Of a stretch of DNA of 64,000 nt, positions 17,136 to 43,033 are shown piece by piece (the stretch's first letter is position 1; each line of letters starts with the position of its first letter). Under the pieces are notes generated by a model. The model ran no database searches, was not told the origin of the DNA, and saw nothing but the letters and a program-made list of their open reading frames with translations. This DNA comes from Alphaproteobacteria bacterium. Lineage in GTDB: Bacteria; Pseudomonadota; Alphaproteobacteria; UBA8366; Aestuariispiraceae. The stretch spans positions 768,001 to 832,000 of the forward strand of contig JASJDC010000002.1 of assembly GCA_030065235.1 (NCBI GenBank), read 5' to 3'. The position numbers and the translations under genes were made by a program.

Positions 17136-18881
17136 TCAGCGACCGTCCTCTTCAGCCAATCCTTTCAACATAGCCGCCGTCTGTGCCGCTTCTGGCGACG
17201 CGCCAATTTCCGCAAACAGCGCATAGGCCCGCTCCCAATGTTCCCGCGCGACCTCGAGATTCCCGCGTGTTTCAGCGACGGTACCAAGATTTCCATAGGA
17301 TTTTTCCATGCCTTCCTTGTGGTTCAGCTCCTCGCTGAAGGCGAGCGATTCACGAAAGAACTCCTCGGCGGCGTCGAGATTGCCCCGCTTTCGAGCAATG
17401 ATACCAAGATTGCCAATGGAGATTGCAGCACTTTCTTTGCTGCCTAGCGCTCTCCCAATCGCTAGTGCTTGCCGATGGTACTCTTCGGCGTTCACGAGAT
17501 CGCCACGCGTCTGAGCGATGAATCCGAGATTACTGTAGCATTTCGCCGTGCCTTCTCGGATTCCCAACACCTCATCGATGGCAAGGGCTTTACGGATTAG
17601 ATCTTCGGCATTGTCGAGGTGGCCACGCTCTAGGGCAATGAGTCCAAGATTGCCGCACGCGTTCGCTATGCCTTCTTTGCGGCCCAGCTCTTTGTTGAGA
17701 GCGAGGGACTTGCAAAAAAGTTCTTCGGCAGCGTCGAGATCGCCTCGTATTTGAGCAATGAGTCCTAGATTGCCGCATTGGCTGGCTATGCCTTCCGTGC
17801 TGCCTAGTGCCTCTTCGATGGCTAGGGACCTGCGATGGTAGGCCTCGGCGACGTTTAGATCACCGCGTGTTTGGGCGATGAGCCCGAGATTGCTGTATTC
17901 GCTCGCCATGCCTTCTTTGTCGCTTAGTACTTTTTCGATTGAGAGGGCTTTGCGATGGAGTTCATTGGCGTCCTCAAGATCACCCCGAACTTGGGCAATG
18001 ATGCCAAGATTGCCGTACGCATTCGCCATGCCCTTTACGCGGCCAACGGCCTCATTGAGGGCGAGGGATTTTCGATGGAACCGCTCGGCTTCGTCGAGAT
18101 CACCGCGCGTTTGAGCGATGATCCCTAGATTTCCTGCTGCGATGGCGAGAAGCGTCTTGTCGTCGAGCTTGTTTCCCAAAGCCTCGACCCGGAGATACGC
18201 GTGTTCCGCCGGATCGAGATTGCCTTTGCGGAAATGCAGGTGACCCAGTTGGTTCCAGGCCTCGGCGTCGTCTGGGTTGAGGGTCGTGGCGCGGTCGTAG
18301 GCGTTGAGCGCCTTGTCGGTGTCGTGCAGAAAGGCGAGCGCGCCGATATGTTTCGCGGCCTCAGCGGCTTGGACGTTGTGCGCGGCGCCTTGCGCGGTTT
18401 CCCGTGCTTCGATGCGTGCGAACAGGGTTTCGGCTTCCGCTGTGTCGCCTTGTTCCAGCAAAGCTAGCGCCTCCTCCACGTTCTCTGCGCCTTCCGACTC
18501 GCGTGTCGCGTCGGATTGTAGCGCATCGACCGCTTCTTCGACCTGTTTGCGCTGTTCCCTATCGGCGAGCAGTGCGGCGTTTTGCACCTCGAGCGCGGCG
18601 ATAACCTTGTCCTTTCCGTCTGACTTTCTCTGTTCCTCGGTCAGCGCGTTCTTGGTGGCGCCAAGCTCCTCAACGCGGTCGAGCATTTCCGGCGATACGT
18701 TTTGCGTAGTTGGCGGGGTTTTTCGGAGGAGAAGCTTCCCCAAAAGCCATGCCATGCCTCCGACAACCGTCGCGACGATGGCGACCAACGCCGCCAGTGC
18801 GCCAATCGGCCCCGCATGCGTCGCAAGAGCATCCCAAAACGCTTTCAGATTTTCCGGAAACCCTTCCATACGCGCAAACAT
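17136..18881 (-). CDS. membrane-anchored tandem TPR protein (kinesin-light-chain-like repeats)
   Basis: About 581 residues from ATG 18881; a GTG at 18905 is an alternative and neither has a strong ribosome-binding site. One N-terminal membrane segment (IGALAALVAIVATVVGGMAW, about residues 26-45) is followed by a charged, probably coiled-coil stretch to about 140, two ordinary TPRs, and then eight nearly uniform 40-residue repeats with the pattern GNLGxIAQTRGDLDxAExxH. This protein-protein interaction array faces the cytoplasm or periplasm depending on anchor orientation. Base composition looks lower in GC than in flanking genes, as expected for a recently amplified or acquired gene. No enzymatic domain is seen; function unknown. 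Confidence 0.85.
   Translation of the reverse strand: MFARMEGFPENLKAFWDALATHAGPIGALAALVAIVATVVGGMAWLLGKLLLRKTPPTTQNVSPEMLDRVEELGATKNALTEEQRKSDGKDKVIAALEVQNAALLADREQRKQVEEAVDALQSDATRESEGAENVEEALALLEQGDTAEAETLFARIEARETAQGAAHNVQAAEAAKHIGALAFLHDTDKALNAYDRATTLNPDDAEAWNQLGHLHFRKGNLDPAEHAYLRVEALGNKLDDKTLLAIAAGNLGIIAQTRGDLDEAERFHRKSLALNEAVGRVKGMANAYGNLGIIAQVRGDLEDANELHRKALSIEKVLSDKEGMASEYSNLGLIAQTRGDLNVAEAYHRRSLAIEEALGSTEGIASQCGNLGLIAQIRGDLDAAEELFCKSLALNKELGRKEGIANACGNLGLIALERGHLDNAEDLIRKALAIDEVLGIREGTAKCYSNLGFIAQTRGDLVNAEEYHRQALAIGRALGSKESAAISIGNLGIIARKRGNLDAAEEFFRESLAFSEELNHKEGMEKSYGNLGTVAETRGNLEVAREHWERAYALFAEIGASPEAAQTAAMLKGLAEEDGR
17180..18140 (-). repeat. tandem 120-bp coding repeats (eight TPR units)
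   Basis: Eight consecutive 120-bp units inside the TPR gene, each containing a recognisable sequence for [G/S]NLG followed 7 residues later by RGDL or RGNL/RGHL. Units are close in DNA as well as protein sequence, so unit number may vary by recombination between strains. Boundaries are approximate. Confidence 0.8.
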
Positions 18882-19156
18882 GGCGGCGATTCCGCGGCGA
18901 GTCACGCTTGCGACCCGCCGCGCCTTTTCTCGTCTCGCACGAACCCCGCCGCTGCGCTGATATCCCGCGCTTATCGCCTCTTGGTGGGGCGTGACAGAGG
19001 CCTAGTTTCCGCCTAAACACAGCGCGTGGCGGCGTTGGGGGCCGTCCGGGGGGCCAGAGTGGTTTGGGGCGGCGTCGGCCGCTGCGTCTCTTACCGCTTC
19101 CTCCCCGGGCGCTTGAACGCCGTGAGCAATCACGATGAGCGAAGGAGTGTGTCTCG

Positions 19157-37472: not shown

Positions 37473-39308
37473 CTATTCGAAGTCTGGATCAACCAGTCGC
37501 AACAGGCCGGCGGCCCGCAGCGCGGCGCTCGGATAGCCCGGCTCCCGCATCTTATAGAGCGAGAAATCCGGTTCGGTGCGCCGCAGCGTCTCCATCGCGT
37601 CAAAGGCGCGTTTGCGATCGCCTTTGTTCAGATATAGGGCCGTCAGATACCGGTAGGCGGGTTTGTAGTCCGGCTTCTTTGCGCGCACGATTTCTGTCAG
37701 GGCGATGGCGTCATCAAAACGTCCGGCCAGGGTGGCCGTGACCGCGCCGAGGAAATCGATTGCGTAGCGATGCGGGCCGGCGCCGACCCGCTGGCGCGCA
37801 TCCTGCACCATACGATACCCGGCTTCTGGGTCGCCGCCATAGGCTTTCGCGAGGCCGAGGAAGGATGCGCCCATCGGGTTGGACGGCGCCAGATCCACGC
37901 TCTGCTCCGCCAGCTCCCGCGCGGCGCTGGTTTCCTGCAGGATGAAACTATGCACATAGGAGGACAGCGCGAGCACGTAGGAATTGGCCGGCGCCAACTC
38001 AATGGCTTTGCTCACGAACTCCCGCACCTGATCCGACACATCGCGCGGGTCGAAGCCGTGCTCCGCGACCAGAAATGTCCTGAGATACGCTTTCCAGGCC
38101 AGGGCCGCGCCGCTGGGTTCAAGATCGATCGATCGATCCAATAAGGTTTCGGCTTCGTCCAGTTCGGTCCGCCCAAGCTTGAACATTTTGCTGATCGCAT
38201 CCATGCCAAGCGAGAAGCGCGAATGCGGCGCGCCGTCTTGCGCCGCGCGTTCGTCCGCCAGCGTTTTCAGCGCGCTCAAGACCATGTCGGTCGTTTGGTT
38301 GACCAGCCGGCTCAACGCGTTTCGCTCGAAGGGGACGCCATCGCCTGACGGCACGTCTTTGACGCCGGACCAGAAAACGCGGCTTGAGCGTCCGTCCAGC
38401 ACAGCAATGACCGCGACGCCGCCGCCCTGGGCGTTGATCGTGACATCGATGCGCAGGCCGACGCCAAATCCGTCGCCAGGCTCGACGCGGACCGCAACGC
38501 CCGCAATGTCGCTGACGCTCTGCGCGATGCTGGCTGTCATGACATTGCTGTAGAACAGAGCGGCGTCGCCGATCGTTGATGTCGGGGCGAGGATCTGAAG
38601 CCAGGGCCTCGCATCCGGCCGTGCTTTGTCCAGGGTCGCCGAGCCCTGAACCACCGCGCCTTCAACCGGCTGCTTAGGAAGGGCGTCCTGACGCCATGGG
38701 ACTGGAGATGCAGGCCCTCGGTCAGGCGCCGCCGGCTCGACGATCCGGAGCCGAGGCGGGCGCTCGGCGTCGGTTTTCGGCGCGCTGTTATGGAGATCGA
38801 GCAGCATATTCTCGAAGGCTGACCGTTCGTCCCGCAACCAGTCTTCGAACTCGCTTTCCGGAATGTCGATATCTTCAAGCAGAACTGGGAGCGCCTCGGT
38901 TTCTTCCCGATCGGTCCAGCGCCTCGCCCGATCGGCTCGGAGCGGGCTCAGCTCCGGCGACAGCCAACTCTCCATGTCGAGTGCAACGCGATCCGGCGCC
39001 AGGCCGACCATTGCACCGTCGGTCACCAGGCAGTCCCGATAGCGGCCCAACCCTCTGCGAATATCGGAGAGCGCGCTGCGCAGGTTCGTCGTTCCCTGTT
39101 TGCCGGGGCTCTCGCCCCACAGTTTGTCCTGAAGCGCGGCGCGTGTTCGGCTCATATTTCGCGACAACGCTAGCAAAGCGAGCAGCGCCCGCGACTTCAC
39201 GAGCCGCGGCCGCAGATCCTCCCCTAAGGGTCCGATCACCTGGAACGGACCGACCAACCGAACTTCAACCTTCGGCGGATTCTGGTCCTGCCCTGCAGCC
39301 CCGCTCAC
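37473..39308 (-). CDS. SARP/winged-helix transcriptional regulator with TPR-like C-terminus
   Basis: About 611 residues from GTG 39308, chosen because GGGGA stands 7 bp upstream and the domain starts directly after; the open frame continues to 39719 only as the antisense of the Asn-Gly-Gly repeat and is rejected there. The N-terminal OmpR/BTAD-type winged helix (about 14-100: VEVRLVGPFQVIGPLG, SRALLALLALS, LQDKLWGE, NLRSALSDIRRGLG) is followed by a linker, a middle domain like those of adenylate-cyclase-associated regulators (about 220-340), and TPR-like helices (about 370-605). A DNA-binding activator sensing an unknown cue is likely. It is divergent from the NGG-repeat PAP2 gene and probably controls it. 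Confidence 0.83.
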   Translation of the reverse strand: MSGAAGQDQNPPKVEVRLVGPFQVIGPLGEDLRPRLVKSRALLALLALSRNMSRTRAALQDKLWGESPGKQGTTNLRSALSDIRRGLGRYRDCLVTDGAMVGLAPDRVALDMESWLSPELSPLRADRARRWTDREETEALPVLLEDIDIPESEFEDWLRDERSAFENMLLDLHNSAPKTDAERPPRLRIVEPAAPDRGPASPVPWRQDALPKQPVEGAVVQGSATLDKARPDARPWLQILAPTSTIGDAALFYSNVMTASIAQSVSDIAGVAVRVEPGDGFGVGLRIDVTINAQGGGVAVIAVLDGRSSRVFWSGVKDVPSGDGVPFERNALSRLVNQTTDMVLSALKTLADERAAQDGAPHSRFSLGMDAISKMFKLGRTELDEAETLLDRSIDLEPSGAALAWKAYLRTFLVAEHGFDPRDVSDQVREFVSKAIELAPANSYVLALSSYVHSFILQETSAARELAEQSVDLAPSNPMGASFLGLAKAYGGDPEAGYRMVQDARQRVGAGPHRYAIDFLGAVTATLAGRFDDAIALTEIVRAKKPDYKPAYRYLTALYLNKGDRKRAFDAMETLRRTEPDFSLYKMREPGYPSAALRAAGLLRLVDPDFE

Positions 39309-39461
39309 CCGAACATCCCCGATGCATGACCAGCGAAAGGTACTGGCTCGCCCCATTCTATACAACAGATCGCACAAATGGACCGCTGGAACGACCGACT
39401 TGGACCGATATTGGGTCTGCCAGAACGGACGATAACTCACGCGTTGCGCGTAGTATATCAT

Positions 39462-39476
39462 AATAATGCCATTATT
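39462..39476. promoter_or_regulatory. perfect palindrome in the divergent promoter region
   Basis: AATAATG-C-CATTATT, a 7-1-7 perfect inverted repeat in a short AT-rich island (39451-39480) of an otherwise GC-rich region, 65 bp upstream of the proposed PAP2 start and about 155 bp from the regulator start. Likely an operator, possibly overlapping the PAP2 promoter. An ATG inside it has no ribosome-binding site and is not used as a start here. Confidence 0.5.
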
Positions 39477-39540
39477 GCGACCTGCGCTCGACAAGGTTCG
39501 GCGCGATATGTCAGCGGAAATCGAGAATGGGAGAGCTATG

Positions 39541-40773
39541 ATGTTACTGACTGGACCCCTAAACGGCGGCAATGGCGGCAATGGTGGAAACGGAGGCAAT
39601 GGCGGAAACGGCGGCAACGGAGGCAATGGCGGAAACGGCGGCAATGGCGGAAACGGGGGTAATGGCGGGAATGGCGGAAACGGAGGCAACGGCGGCGGGA
39701 AGCTGATGAATCCCGTCACCTCCGGCGCCTTGATCTCGCATTACGACGGGATTACCGGTCCGTTCGCGGACACGAAGGACCCGGCTAAAACGACCCCGAC
39801 CGCGACGGAAAAGATGATGGAGCGCTGGTCTTTTCGGGTGCGCTCCTTCGTCCTCGGCGGCGAAGTGTTGGAAGGGCTGAAATTCGTCGCCAACGCCAAA
39901 CAGAGCAAAGGCAAGGATCAAAGCGTCAGCTATCAGGTCACCGACGCGGTCCCCGGCGGCAAGACGCCGGCGCCCGGCGAATTGGCGCGTATTCTAAGAC
40001 CGTCGGAAACGGACTTCCGCAAGGACCAGCTCCACTATGTGCGCGGCTACGCCGATTTGCGCCGCGACCGTGCGGCGGAGATCTATTCGCAGGTCGATGG
40101 GTTCACGGAGTTCTTCGCCGGAATCGGCTTCCTGCATCCGGAGCGTACGAAATACACGCTCGAACTGCTGTCGGCGATGCTGGGCGCCTGCATCACCACC
40201 GAGATGCGCCTGAAACACGCCTTGGCGTGCCGGCGGCCGGTTGAATATAGCGCCCAACTGGGCGCGACCATTCAGACGCCGTCGCACAGCACCTTCCCCA
40301 GCGGTCACGCCTGTGAGGCTTTCCTGGTCGCGGAGGTCCTGTCGGTCCTCTCGGAACGCCAGGACAAGAAGCTCTATGGGTCGAAACGTCTGCTGCGCCG
40401 GCAGTTGCTGCGGGCCGCGGCGCGGATCGCGACGAACCGGATCGTGGCCGGCGTGCATTTCCCGGTGGACAACGCTGTCGGCCAAGTTTTCGGAACGTCG
40501 CTGGCCAAATACTTGATCGCCCGGGCTGAGGGCGCGGAGGCGAAAGTCGGCGGCTGGTTCTTCGACGGGACGCAGTACGGCGACCAGGACCATGAATGGA
40601 TCGAAATCGCGGACGCCCTGGACTCCGGCGATCCAGGTCCGACGGGCCGCTACCTGACGCCGCTGCCCGGCTTTATCATCCCCGCCGCGCCGCCGGCCTA
40701 TCCGAAGGACGATCTGAGCCCGCTCAACTGGCTCTGGGAGAAAGCCCGCGCCGAATGGCGCAACGTTCTCTGA
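39541..40773 (+). CDS. PAP2/vanadium-haloperoxidase superfamily protein with N-terminal Asn-Gly-Gly repeat
   Basis: 410 residues from ATG 39541, where GGGAG sits 7 bp upstream; ATGs at 39466, 39508 and 39538 are alternatives. Residues 1-7 (MLLTGPL) are followed by 15 uninterrupted NGG triplets (8-52), a linker and a helical catalytic domain. The three phosphate/vanadate-binding motifs are complete: K225-x6-R232-P233, P253-S-G-H256 and R300-x5-H306-x3-D310. No signal peptide or membrane helices are evident, so it resembles soluble bacterial haloperoxidase-like or acid phosphatase enzymes more than membrane lipid phosphatases. The subtilase gene follows 52 bp on, same strand; the regulator is divergent. 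Substrate unknown. Confidence 0.85.
   Translation: MLLTGPLNGGNGGNGGNGGNGGNGGNGGNGGNGGNGGNGGNGGNGGNGGNGGGKLMNPVTSGALISHYDGITGPFADTKDPAKTTPTATEKMMERWSFRVRSFVLGGEVLEGLKFVANAKQSKGKDQSVSYQVTDAVPGGKTPAPGELARILRPSETDFRKDQLHYVRGYADLRRDRAAEIYSQVDGFTEFFAGIGFLHPERTKYTLELLSAMLGACITTEMRLKHALACRRPVEYSAQLGATIQTPSHSTFPSGHACEAFLVAEVLSVLSERQDKKLYGSKRLLRRQLLRAAARIATNRIVAGVHFPVDNAVGQVFGTSLAKYLIARAEGAEAKVGGWFFDGTQYGDQDHEWIEIADALDSGDPGPTGRYLTPLPGFIIPAAPPAYPKDDLSPLNWLWEKARAEWRNVL
39562..39696 (+). repeat. fifteen 9-bp units encoding (Asn-Gly-Gly)15
   Basis: Each 9-bp unit reads AAY GGN GGN. Third positions vary between units (AAT or AAC; GGC, GGA, GGT, GGG) while the amino acids never do, so the protein repeat is kept by selection or is older than a simple slippage product. 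The antisense strand reads as Pro-Pro-Phe/Leu and creates a false N-terminal extension of the regulator. Confidence 0.95.
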
Positions 40774-40825
40774 GCCAGGCGATGACATCGGATTGGATAT
40801 CGGAGATCGGCTGAAGGAGCGCATG

Positions 40826-43033
40826 ATGAAGAATATATGGAAATACGCGCCGCTCGGCGGCGGCGCGGTCAGCCCAGAGGCGGATTGGTTCGCCTTTGTC
40901 GGCGATGTGAACGGGCCGCCGGATCCGGTCCTGACCGACCGCACCCCGCGGCCGTCGACGATCCGGCTGGGCCGCGCGACCGGCGCGGCGCTGCTCAGCG
41001 CCTATCGAAAACGATCGGGGTTGCCCAAATTGGAGGCGGTGGAGGAAGCCGCCGCCTCCTGTCCGGCTTGGTTCAAGAAGCTGCGGTCGGAAATCAGGCT
41101 ATCCCAAGGCGCGTTCGATCAGTTGTCGGCCTTCATCGCGGACGGTGGCGAGACGCTTGATCTGGCGGTCTCGCTGATGCGCGCCGGCTATGCCGGTTTC
41201 ATGGCTCGGATGGCTATCGGCGAGGGCGGCTGCGCGGCGGAGGATGCGACGCTTCTGGATTTCGGCGTCGGTCTGAACAAGTCGGTATATGCTAGGGGCG
41301 TCGTGCGCGAGACCGGGTCCGGTCCCGGGGCGGCCGAGCCGACGGCGCTGACCGGCGATGAGGTCATCATGGCGATCATCGATGACGGGATCGCTTTCGC
41401 TCACGACCGGTTCCGGCTCGGCCCGACCGAGACCCGGTTCGAGTATTTCTGGGCGATGGACGCGCGTCCCGATCCGCGGGGGCCGGGCGACAGTGTCGGC
41501 TGCACCCACGGCCGCTCGTTGCGCAAGTCCGAGATCGACGCGCTGCTGCGGCGATACGGGTCGGACAATGATACAGCGATCTATCGGGCCTGCGGCCTTT
41601 TGGATTTCGCCAAGGATCAACGCCAGCCGCTGCGGATCGCGCAGTCCCACGGCACGCATGTGCTCGATGTCGCGACCGGTTTTGACCATAGCGACCGGCG
41701 ACAGCGTCAGTCGGCGGCGAAACGGCCGATCATCGGCGTGGAGCTGCCGGCGGCGATCGTTGCAGACACCTCGGGCGCGCTGACGCCGCCCTACCTCCAG
41801 GAAGCGCTCGACCGCGTTTATGAGAACGCGGTGGAGCTGGCCGATCGGATCGGGGCCAGCCGGGGCCGGCCTGTCAGATACTTGCCGATGGTGCTGAATT
41901 TCAGCTTCGGCGTCTTTGCCGGTCCCTTGGACGGCCATGGCCCGATCGAGCGTATGATCGACGCTTTTCTGGCGCGTTACCGCGCCTTGCCGGGCGGCCC
42001 GGAATGCCAGATCGTCCTGCCGGCGGGCAATTCTTATCTTGAGGAAACGGTCGCACAGCCGCGGGCCGGGACCAAGGGCGCGAAAATCAAGATGGCCGCG
42101 CGGGTGCTGCCCGACGACAAGACTGTCAGCTTCATCCATATCTGGTTGCCGGAACGGCCGGCCGGTTCCGCCCAGGCGGTTTCGGTCGCGGCGGTTCCGC
42201 CGACCGGCGGTCCGTCCCAGCGGAAATGGAGCAAACGCGGTCACGCGTTGGAATGGGTGCGCGACGGCGTGGCGCTGGCCCGCCTATATCACCGGACGGT
42301 GTCGCGCCCTGGCGGCATGGAGCGTGAGCAGATCGTGCTTTGTACACGGGCGACGGAGACCGAAGGTCTTGATGTGCCGCGTTGCCCGTCGGGTCTGTGG
42401 CGCTTGATCGTCCGCAACGAGGACTTGCCGGCCGAGGCCACGGTCGAGTTCCGAATTCAGCGGGACGATCCGCTCTATGGGCAAGTCTTCAAGGGGCGGC
42501 AAGCCTATTTCGATATGCCCTCCTATGTGCGCTACGAAGTCCTGAACGGACGTCTGCGCCAGGACGCCTCGTTGGAGAAAGGCCCGGTCACTCGAAAAGG
42601 CACGTTGAACGCCTATGCCGGGTCCCCGAATCCGGTCGTGGTGGCCAGCTACCGCCGATCTGACGGCCATCCGGCGCTCTATTCGTCGGGCGGACCGTTG
42701 AAGCGGCGGCCCGACGGGCCGGACCTGGCCGCGGTCAGTGAGGAAAGCTACGCCGCCTATGGCGTGATCGGCGCGGGGACGCAAAGCGGCTCCACCATCG
42801 CCCAGAACGGCACCAGTGTCGCGGCGCCGATGGTCGCTCGGGTCCTGGCGGCGGAAATTGAAGCCGGAACGCCGGACCCGGTTTCCGCCTTGAAGCTGGC
42901 GGTGGCGAAACAGGAGGCGTCCGGCATTGTCGGCCCTCATGGGCTCTATGAGCCGAACCAGCCGACCCGCGCGGGTGTCGGGCGTGTGACCTTCCATTCA
43001 ATGGGGTGGCGCCCGAGCCGGATCGAGGGCTGA
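40826..43033 (+). CDS. S8 family (subtilisin-like) serine protease with large insertion
   Basis: 735 residues from ATG 40826, 6 bp after AAGGAG (ATG 40823 is too close). The catalytic triad is complete: Asp186 in MAIIDDGIAF, His275 in SHGTHVLDVATG and Ser664 in NGTSVAAPMVA, with oxyanion Asn402 in LPAGNSY. About 260 residues separate Asn402 from Ser664 instead of the usual 60-80; the insertion (about 410-600) has beta-rich segments such as GLWRLIVRNEDLPAEATVEF, like a carbohydrate- or P-domain-like module. No signal peptide; residues 1-180 are an unrecognised N-terminal domain. Probably a cytoplasmic or non-classically exported protease acting with the PAP2 protein. Confidence 0.87.
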   Translation: MKNIWKYAPLGGGAVSPEADWFAFVGDVNGPPDPVLTDRTPRPSTIRLGRATGAALLSAYRKRSGLPKLEAVEEAAASCPAWFKKLRSEIRLSQGAFDQLSAFIADGGETLDLAVSLMRAGYAGFMARMAIGEGGCAAEDATLLDFGVGLNKSVYARGVVRETGSGPGAAEPTALTGDEVIMAIIDDGIAFAHDRFRLGPTETRFEYFWAMDARPDPRGPGDSVGCTHGRSLRKSEIDALLRRYGSDNDTAIYRACGLLDFAKDQRQPLRIAQSHGTHVLDVATGFDHSDRRQRQSAAKRPIIGVELPAAIVADTSGALTPPYLQEALDRVYENAVELADRIGASRGRPVRYLPMVLNFSFGVFAGPLDGHGPIERMIDAFLARYRALPGGPECQIVLPAGNSYLEETVAQPRAGTKGAKIKMAARVLPDDKTVSFIHIWLPERPAGSAQAVSVAAVPPTGGPSQRKWSKRGHALEWVRDGVALARLYHRTVSRPGGMEREQIVLCTRATETEGLDVPRCPSGLWRLIVRNEDLPAEATVEFRIQRDDPLYGQVFKGRQAYFDMPSYVRYEVLNGRLRQDASLEKGPVTRKGTLNAYAGSPNPVVVASYRRSDGHPALYSSGGPLKRRPDGPDLAAVSEESYAAYGVIGAGTQSGSTIAQNGTSVAAPMVARVLAAEIEAGTPDPVSALKLAVAKQEASGIVGPHGLYEPNQPTRAGVGRVTFHSMGWRPSRIEG

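Follow-up and report, generated by a model that had tools for sequence, protein, structure and literature searches.

The 64,000-nucleotide window analysed here (contig JASJDC010000002.1, positions 768,001–832,000, of an alphaproteobacterial genome) carries at positions 37473–43033 a locus encoding a regulator, a PAP2-superfamily enzyme with an N-terminal array of fifteen Asn-Gly-Gly (NGG) units, and a subtilase. Our analysis revealed that these three genes are genetically linked across related loci, and that strong selection at the amino-acid level keeps the array uniform even as lineages replace its unit, the triplet frame being fixed at the start of the protein (residue 2). The component families are known. 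In the literature searched (mostly open-access papers, no preprints), no description was found of the module, its combination of parts or the behaviour of its repeat, in line with the first-pass annotation of this DNA, which had recognised no known operon here. The array pattern suggests a code that some partner reads, and the neighbouring protease is our tentative candidate for that reader.

A uniform array with a changing unit

The PAP2 gene (39541–40773, + strand) is best started at ATG 39541. Its leader, MLLTGPL (39541–39561, +), consists of the Met and two triplets and is in frame with the array (39562–39696, +), whose 15 NGG units are written in mixed synonymous codons (7 distinct 9-mers). 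When the named genome collection was first scanned with just the window PAP2 as query, there was no match; a profile of ten PAP2 relatives retrieved at least 513 relatives, of which the best 80, not a random draw, were kept. L010, L033 and L037 were dropped as duplicates of L046, L047 and L060. L117, with its array past the contig end, stands outside the array counts, and L106, L114, L121 and L037 stand outside alignment A6.

The census comprised 86 arrays: 79 from the set of 80 loci, six from additional loci and the window's own. All 86 have a period of 3, with 4 to 16 perfect copies and 39 units allowing for rotation. NGG itself is not what is kept; conserved is a uniform tandem unit, which differs between lineages. 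Units include NGE, NAD, GGV, GAF and RAQ, and their chemistries are as different as those of SSD and RAQ on one side and GGL and TGW on the other. On a tree of the PAP2 domain (94 sequences, arrays left out), at least 49 unit changes and one change of regulator type were counted; this was a quickly built tree that leaves 33 of its 91 inner branches open. To our knowledge, there is no described case of a repeat kept uniform within each protein while its unit is replaced dozens of times.

This uniformity is no DNA artefact, because synonymous sites are saturated while the residues are near-identical. Only 29 of the 856 units are imperfect, and within arrays the synonymous difference (pS) is 0.73 and the non-synonymous difference (pN) 0.028, giving a pN/pS of 0.038, with pN restricted to units matching at two or more of the three residues. 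Synonymous divergence between units of one array amounts to 1.06 times the random-codon expectation of the same gene (median of 86); four arrays (TSD, SSD, SGD, WVA) are clearly younger at the DNA level. In pairs of close relatives, array residues are mostly kept and codons differ. Sister pairs gave values of 0.045 for the array versus 0.275 for the catalytic part, a biased comparison of hand-picked pairs, nearly all of which share their unit. Copy number varies by whole units: across 7 records, three Phaeobacter species have 5, 6 and 7 copies.

Among 906 other tiled open reading frames (ORFs) of at least 90 aa in the 80 related loci, none contains four or more perfect copies of a repeat; the tiling was heuristic and pushed 6 of the 80 PAP2 frames out of place. 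In the 4.18 Mb of the window's own genome, a search pattern for DNA encoding three NGG units matches only inside this PAP2 gene. An amyloid-signalling pair, with the motif recurring in a second protein, was rejected on these two results. Selection against slippage was unsupported, adjacent identical 9-mers numbering 49 of 733 against 40.7 (sd 5.2) expected.

The reading frame of the leader

In 74 of the 94 group-I proteins, the array starts a multiple of three residues after the start Met; the count is probably 73, as L073 (TTG start, leader of 19) was taken as in frame and its close relatives are off frame. A first count that included group II, the more distant repeat-bearing PAP2 proteins from nine loci, gave 78 of 102. 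On the tree, the leader underwent at least 36 length changes and 12 frame changes, or 33 and 10 when the nearest ATG was used as the start instead. The linker following the array, available as a control in 87 of the 94 proteins, showed 58 length and 37 frame changes, its frames being evenly spread (33, 27 and 27); the difference in frame changes between leader and linker gave a Fisher p of 0.006.

The triplets themselves display a positional pattern. In the triplets of the distinct in-frame leaders, Gly, Ala, Ser or Thr stands first in 51/61, 32/41 and 16/19 cases, compared with 14, 14 and 5 at the second position and 22, 14 and 2 at the third. Met removal also favours a small residue at position 2, the very first leader-triplet residue. 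Of 37 in-frame units, 26 have their largest residue in third place. Where arrays are interrupted (15 cases, nine of them in related GAF arrays), the interruption is always exactly three residues long. Among the 20 off-frame proteins, eight form a Microvirga group whose leaders end in GIGPL, and L097, L102, L115 and L122 are off frame only because the residues preceding the array happen to match it. The idea that leaders are decayed copies of the present unit was unsupported (matches 0.26 versus 0.33 after shuffling).

Conservation and spread of the module

In 79 of the 80 loci, the PAP2 gene is followed on its own strand by a subtilase (78 by script, plus L053, where the subtilase was taken to be the last part of a longer called frame), the exception, L121, being a contig end. 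A regulator lies within 500 bp of the PAP2 gene in 79 of the 80 (64 co-directional, 15 divergent), with L117, again a contig end, as the exception; homologues of the regulator are also divergent from the PAP2 gene in L010, L033 and L038. Other neighbour families are each common to no more than 13 of the 80 loci, and the flanks change from locus to locus. Scattered homologues, which the first-pass annotation had named as refuting its proposal of an uncharacterised system, were thus not what was found, and the linkage across 80 loci bears out a conserved system without a name. The same annotation had suspected the EAL gene downstream of being a later addition; it is placed outside the module because only L098 among the 80 loci holds similar genes, as two distant matches.

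Within the family (G003, L009) and the order (G031, L010) of the window's genome, PAP2 relatives have like neighbours and other repeats (TGV, NGE), and a PAP2 search of 385 genomes of the class (three rows) found 16 genomes at E ≤1e-8. By record titles, the linked module occurs in Alpha-, Beta- and Gammaproteobacteria; from genus names, we take the orders of the 80 loci to be Rhodospirillales, Rhodobacterales, Hyphomicrobiales and Burkholderiales, with one Chromatiales symbiont. Two records (L052, L093) are titled Oceanobacillus sp. HTM 045, probably wrongly, having 67–69% GC and alphaproteobacteria-like modules. PAP2 matches were found on 35 plasmid records, with the module present in all 7 examined; in the 7 Phaeobacter plasmid records (three species), its genes carry generic names only. 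Viral contigs gave only 3 weak matches, and a phage origin is not supported.

Among 398 genomes drawn from the phylum, the loci examined at the strong end of the PAP2 matches (E ≤1.4e-16) numbered 21, and all encode short tandem repeats at the N-terminus, with a period of 3 in 18, SGGA in one and NK in two. Seven of these loci are places already in the earlier sets. The regulator lies within 1.5 kb in 20 of the 21, and beyond the subtilase in the remaining one (L155/L174). All nine weaker PAP2 loci examined had no repeat, no regulator and no S8 or A4 match within 1.5 kb. Where the subtilase is inverted (L175, L177), it still adjoins the PAP2 gene.

The protease family is not constant. Group-II arrays have the units TSN, DAR, TGN, AGN, DGM, EGGG and NWFGG, and their protease neighbours are a non-homologous Peptidase_A4 in 5 of the 9 loci, a subtilase in 2 and an M24 peptidase frame in 1; the remaining locus has a papain-like gene on the other strand, with a match below the Pfam cut-off. 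The M24 frame (L126:10579-12015) overlaps the end of the PAP2 gene with the DGM array and is possibly another protease partner. Separately, a protein with thermolysin-like sequence features, judged by eye, is encoded two genes from the TGV module (L009:5904-7694). A second module is present in the window's own genome (L129:319-6627), consisting of a regulator, a PAP2 protein with an NK dipeptide array and a pair of subtilases; L172 and L173 again have the NK form together with a subtilase.

The three genes of the window

The layout described at first, with a divergent regulator, a PAP2 gene holding exactly 15 NGG units and a subtilase 52 bp further on, was confirmed; start codons were picked by a Shine-Dalgarno heuristic. 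The PAP2 enzyme belongs to its superfamily by Pfam (PAP2 1.1e-13, 51.5 bits versus a cut-off of 27.2) and has complete motifs, K225-x6-RP, PSGH 253 and R300-x5-H-x3-D (40213–40470, +). Its AlphaFold2 (AF2) model has a predicted local distance difference test score (pLDDT) of 84.6, falling below 50 at residues 1–53, so that the array is predicted to be disordered. The best solved match of the model is the acid phosphatase 7f17 (Z 18.1, 201 residues, 2.2 Å). The enzyme had been labelled haloperoxidase-like at first; its fold is nearer to acid phosphatases than to haloperoxidases (Z 18.1 versus 13.4), and the sequence profile agrees.

The subtilase (40826–43033, +) starts at ATG 40826, 52 bp past the PAP2 stop, and comprises a prodomain and an S8 domain (Pfam 1.1e-9). 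The complete triad and very large insertion noted earlier were both recovered: D186, H275 and S664, together with the oxyanion N402, are invariant in 42 aligned subtilases, the window's included, and the insertion lies between N402 and S664. In the predicted structure (AF2, pLDDT 87.5, predicted TM-score 0.92), it forms a large beta-rich, Csp-like jelly roll at approximately 42047–42625 (+). Among the matches listed, the closest solved folds are Csp proteases, prodomain and jelly roll included (VIA Z 31.1 to 4i0w over 419 residues; Foldseek E 1.9e-20 to 9pr8). The curated NCBIfam model CspBA scores 9.9 bits against a cut-off of 1250, well short of a match to that model.

The regulator (37473–39356, − strand) has an uncertain start, with ATG 39356 or GTG 39308 being likely; its longest frame, 37473–39719, runs antisense through the NGG array. 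It combines an OmpR/SARP-like winged helix-turn-helix (wHTH) N-terminus, a TolB-like middle and a TPR C-terminus. The first-pass annotation called it a SARP-type regulator. The divergent orientation, the TPR region and a weak wHTH (Pfam Trans_reg_C, 17.5 bits versus a cut-off of 26.2) stood; the BTAD domain that accompanies the winged helix in SARP regulators gave no Pfam match at E 1, and NCBIfam gave an AfsR match of 4e-7 at 28.4 bits versus a cut-off of 1430. Most relatives carry a class III cyclase-TPR protein instead. Among 74 upstream proteins of the co-directional type, 56 match class III cyclase, 3 winged helix and 1 BTAD (L127) at E 0.001, and 66 match TPR_2; by simple patterns, 64 of 78 retain the cyclase motif K-x2-GDG and 48 of 78 retain N-x-A-[AS]-R. 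By profile, a Crp-family gene lies beside ten modules of the CYC type (e.g., L009:14986-15651, L107:4782-5441 and eight other loci) and beside no module with a divergent regulator; the cyclic-nucleotide-binding domain was checked with Pfam for two. This hints at cyclic AMP as the output of CYC-type modules.

Elsewhere in the window, a 120-bp tandem repeat of 2.3 copies (17737–18015) lies inside an ORF at 17136–18905 (−).

A possible protease-gated enzyme and its alternatives

Considering the array together with its partners, we propose as a plausible though tentative reading that the three genes form a protease-gated enzyme system, in which the array serves as a propeptide that the partner protease reads and can remove. 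The regulator (TolB-like/TPR, with a wHTH here and a cyclase in most relatives) would switch on the PAP2 and subtilase genes. The subtilase would mature and then remove the array, unit by unit or by a cut at the array, and this removal would activate, or less likely inactivate, the phosphatase. A misfit unit would halt the reaction and so be purged. Under this proposal, arrays are uniform within and drift between lineages because every unit must fit the same protease subsites. We infer protease action on the array since it would explain uniformity and replacement together, a partner of changing family, and the frame. The conserved linkage with subtilase and regulator, the contrast between the 21 array-bearing loci and the nine weaker ones, the Peptidase_A4 in the subtilase's place, adjacency despite inversion, the pN/pS of 0.038, the triplet interruptions, the leader frame with its small first residues, the bulky third residues of the units and the Csp fold are all consistent with it, Csp activity being required for pro-SleC to be cleaved (PMC3567191).

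Several observations weigh against this reading. Unit similarity follows the distance between regulators better than that between proteases (60 loci; 0.37 given PAP2, 0.26 given PAP2 and S8). The subtilase signal, with r 0.26 and p 0.001 given PAP2, falls to 0.107 (p 0.074) when the regulator is allowed for, only the prodomain remaining at p 0.024, so no protease-specific co-evolution was seen; the signal may favour the regulator because the array adjoins its gene. A fixed frame could possibly also result from decay of the leader from an older array. Outside the census, other periods occur: SGGA (L151), EGGG (L127), NK (L129, L159, L160) and NWFGG (L176). Array-less L128, one of six further such relatives, adjoins a weakly matching divergent regulator (1.6e-18), and array-less L011 has a regulator 2.6 kb away. 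Two of ten places with this subtilase type in the 385 genomes, the weakest (E ~1e-50), lack PAP2 in the stretch examined, and the subtilases of L174 and L175 were called by a custom profile only, with no Pfam match at 0.01. Finally, a Csp-type protease need not demand a uniform unit: in Clostridium, pro-SleC is cut at a single site and requires active CspB to be cleaved efficiently, and altered P1–P3 residues at the processing site of CspB itself are tolerated (PMC3567191).

A more specific version, which we regard as quite unlikely, is a tripeptide fuse. After Met removal, the protease would eat the N-terminus three residues per step (small-x-bulky), array length would set the delay before the phosphatase switches, and a misfit unit would stall the clock. 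It would account for the residue-2 frame, the triplet interruptions, array purity, unit change between lineages and the constant protease partner. The protease-gated system would also be compatible with a role in anti-phage or inter-bacterial conflict, proteolysis freeing a toxic phosphatase. We consider this role unlikely: patchy spread, changing flanks, the plasmid records and protease swaps suit it, but the regulator and PAP2 have no PADLOC match at E 0.1, the subtilase matches PADLOC models weakly and over the Ser region only (subtilase 1.3e-4, IetS 6.6e-5), and the few viral-contig matches are weak.

Other explanations dispense with the protease as reader. The array could be an assembly element, a bundle of three-residue-per-turn helices or a homotypic low-complexity sticker that clusters the enzyme, with uniformity serving self-stacking and the protease controlling amount or location. 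The strict period, the uniformity and the small-small-bulky units suit stacked ladders, and hydrophilic and hydrophobic sets track the two regulator types (17 versus 69 arrays, mean hydropathy −1.71 versus +0.67), an association that counts as one event because regulator type changed once on the tree. However, unit chemistry spans SSD and RAQ to GGL and TGW, the window array is modelled at a pLDDT below 50, and the N-terminally anchored frame and constant protease partner are left unexplained; we find assembly rather unlikely. Docking of the array to the TPR domain of the upstream regulator, which would sense free or processed enzyme, agrees with the tracking of regulator distance, which exceeds that of subtilase or PAP2 distance. 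Yet in these loci a few tens of bp separate the array from where the regulator gene ends, so linkage alone can give this signal, and the regulators vary in output (cyclase, wHTH) with no tie to any one unit; we consider docking improbable. A neutral product of DNA slippage is highly improbable and was rejected: the four young arrays and the Phaeobacter copy numbers would fit it, but synonymous saturation with so low a pN/pS, at least 49 unit replacements with the array always kept, and 0 of 906 other ORFs affected all speak against it.

If true, the protease-gated reading would establish a new enzyme module of this kind, one that is linked in most relatives to a cyclase-domain protein and occurs in roseobacters, rhizobia and Burkholderiales, and would provide a set of candidate protease-substrate tags.

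Comparison with known systems

Stepwise reading of the array, as proposed, would resemble tripeptidyl peptidase II, an S8 enzyme that removes three residues per step from the N-terminus; it is not among the 50 structural matches listed, which excludes nothing. With Csp proteases, the window subtilase shares the subtilase fold, the prodomain and a jelly-roll insert after the oxyanion Asn. The Csp/pro-SleC pair acts in clostridial spore germination, whereas here there is no spore system and the proposed substrate is a PAP2 enzyme with a tandem array.

Collagen-like and elastin-like repeats resemble the arrays in their period of 3 and in Gly in many units. Gly at every third residue holds for the window NGG array, but not for the family, which includes the Gly-free units NAD, SSD, RAQ, SAY, TAM and QTQ and has undergone at least 49 unit changes.

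As for the enzyme, vanadium haloperoxidases have the superfamily motifs in common with the window PAP2, their structural match being weaker (Z 13.4). Class A acid phosphatases (7f17, PhoN, PhoC) share both fold and motifs. In contrast to them, the window PAP2 has no strongly hydrophobic stretch (19-residue maximum 1.25) and adds an N-terminal array, an extra region before residue 99, and constant regulator and protease partners.

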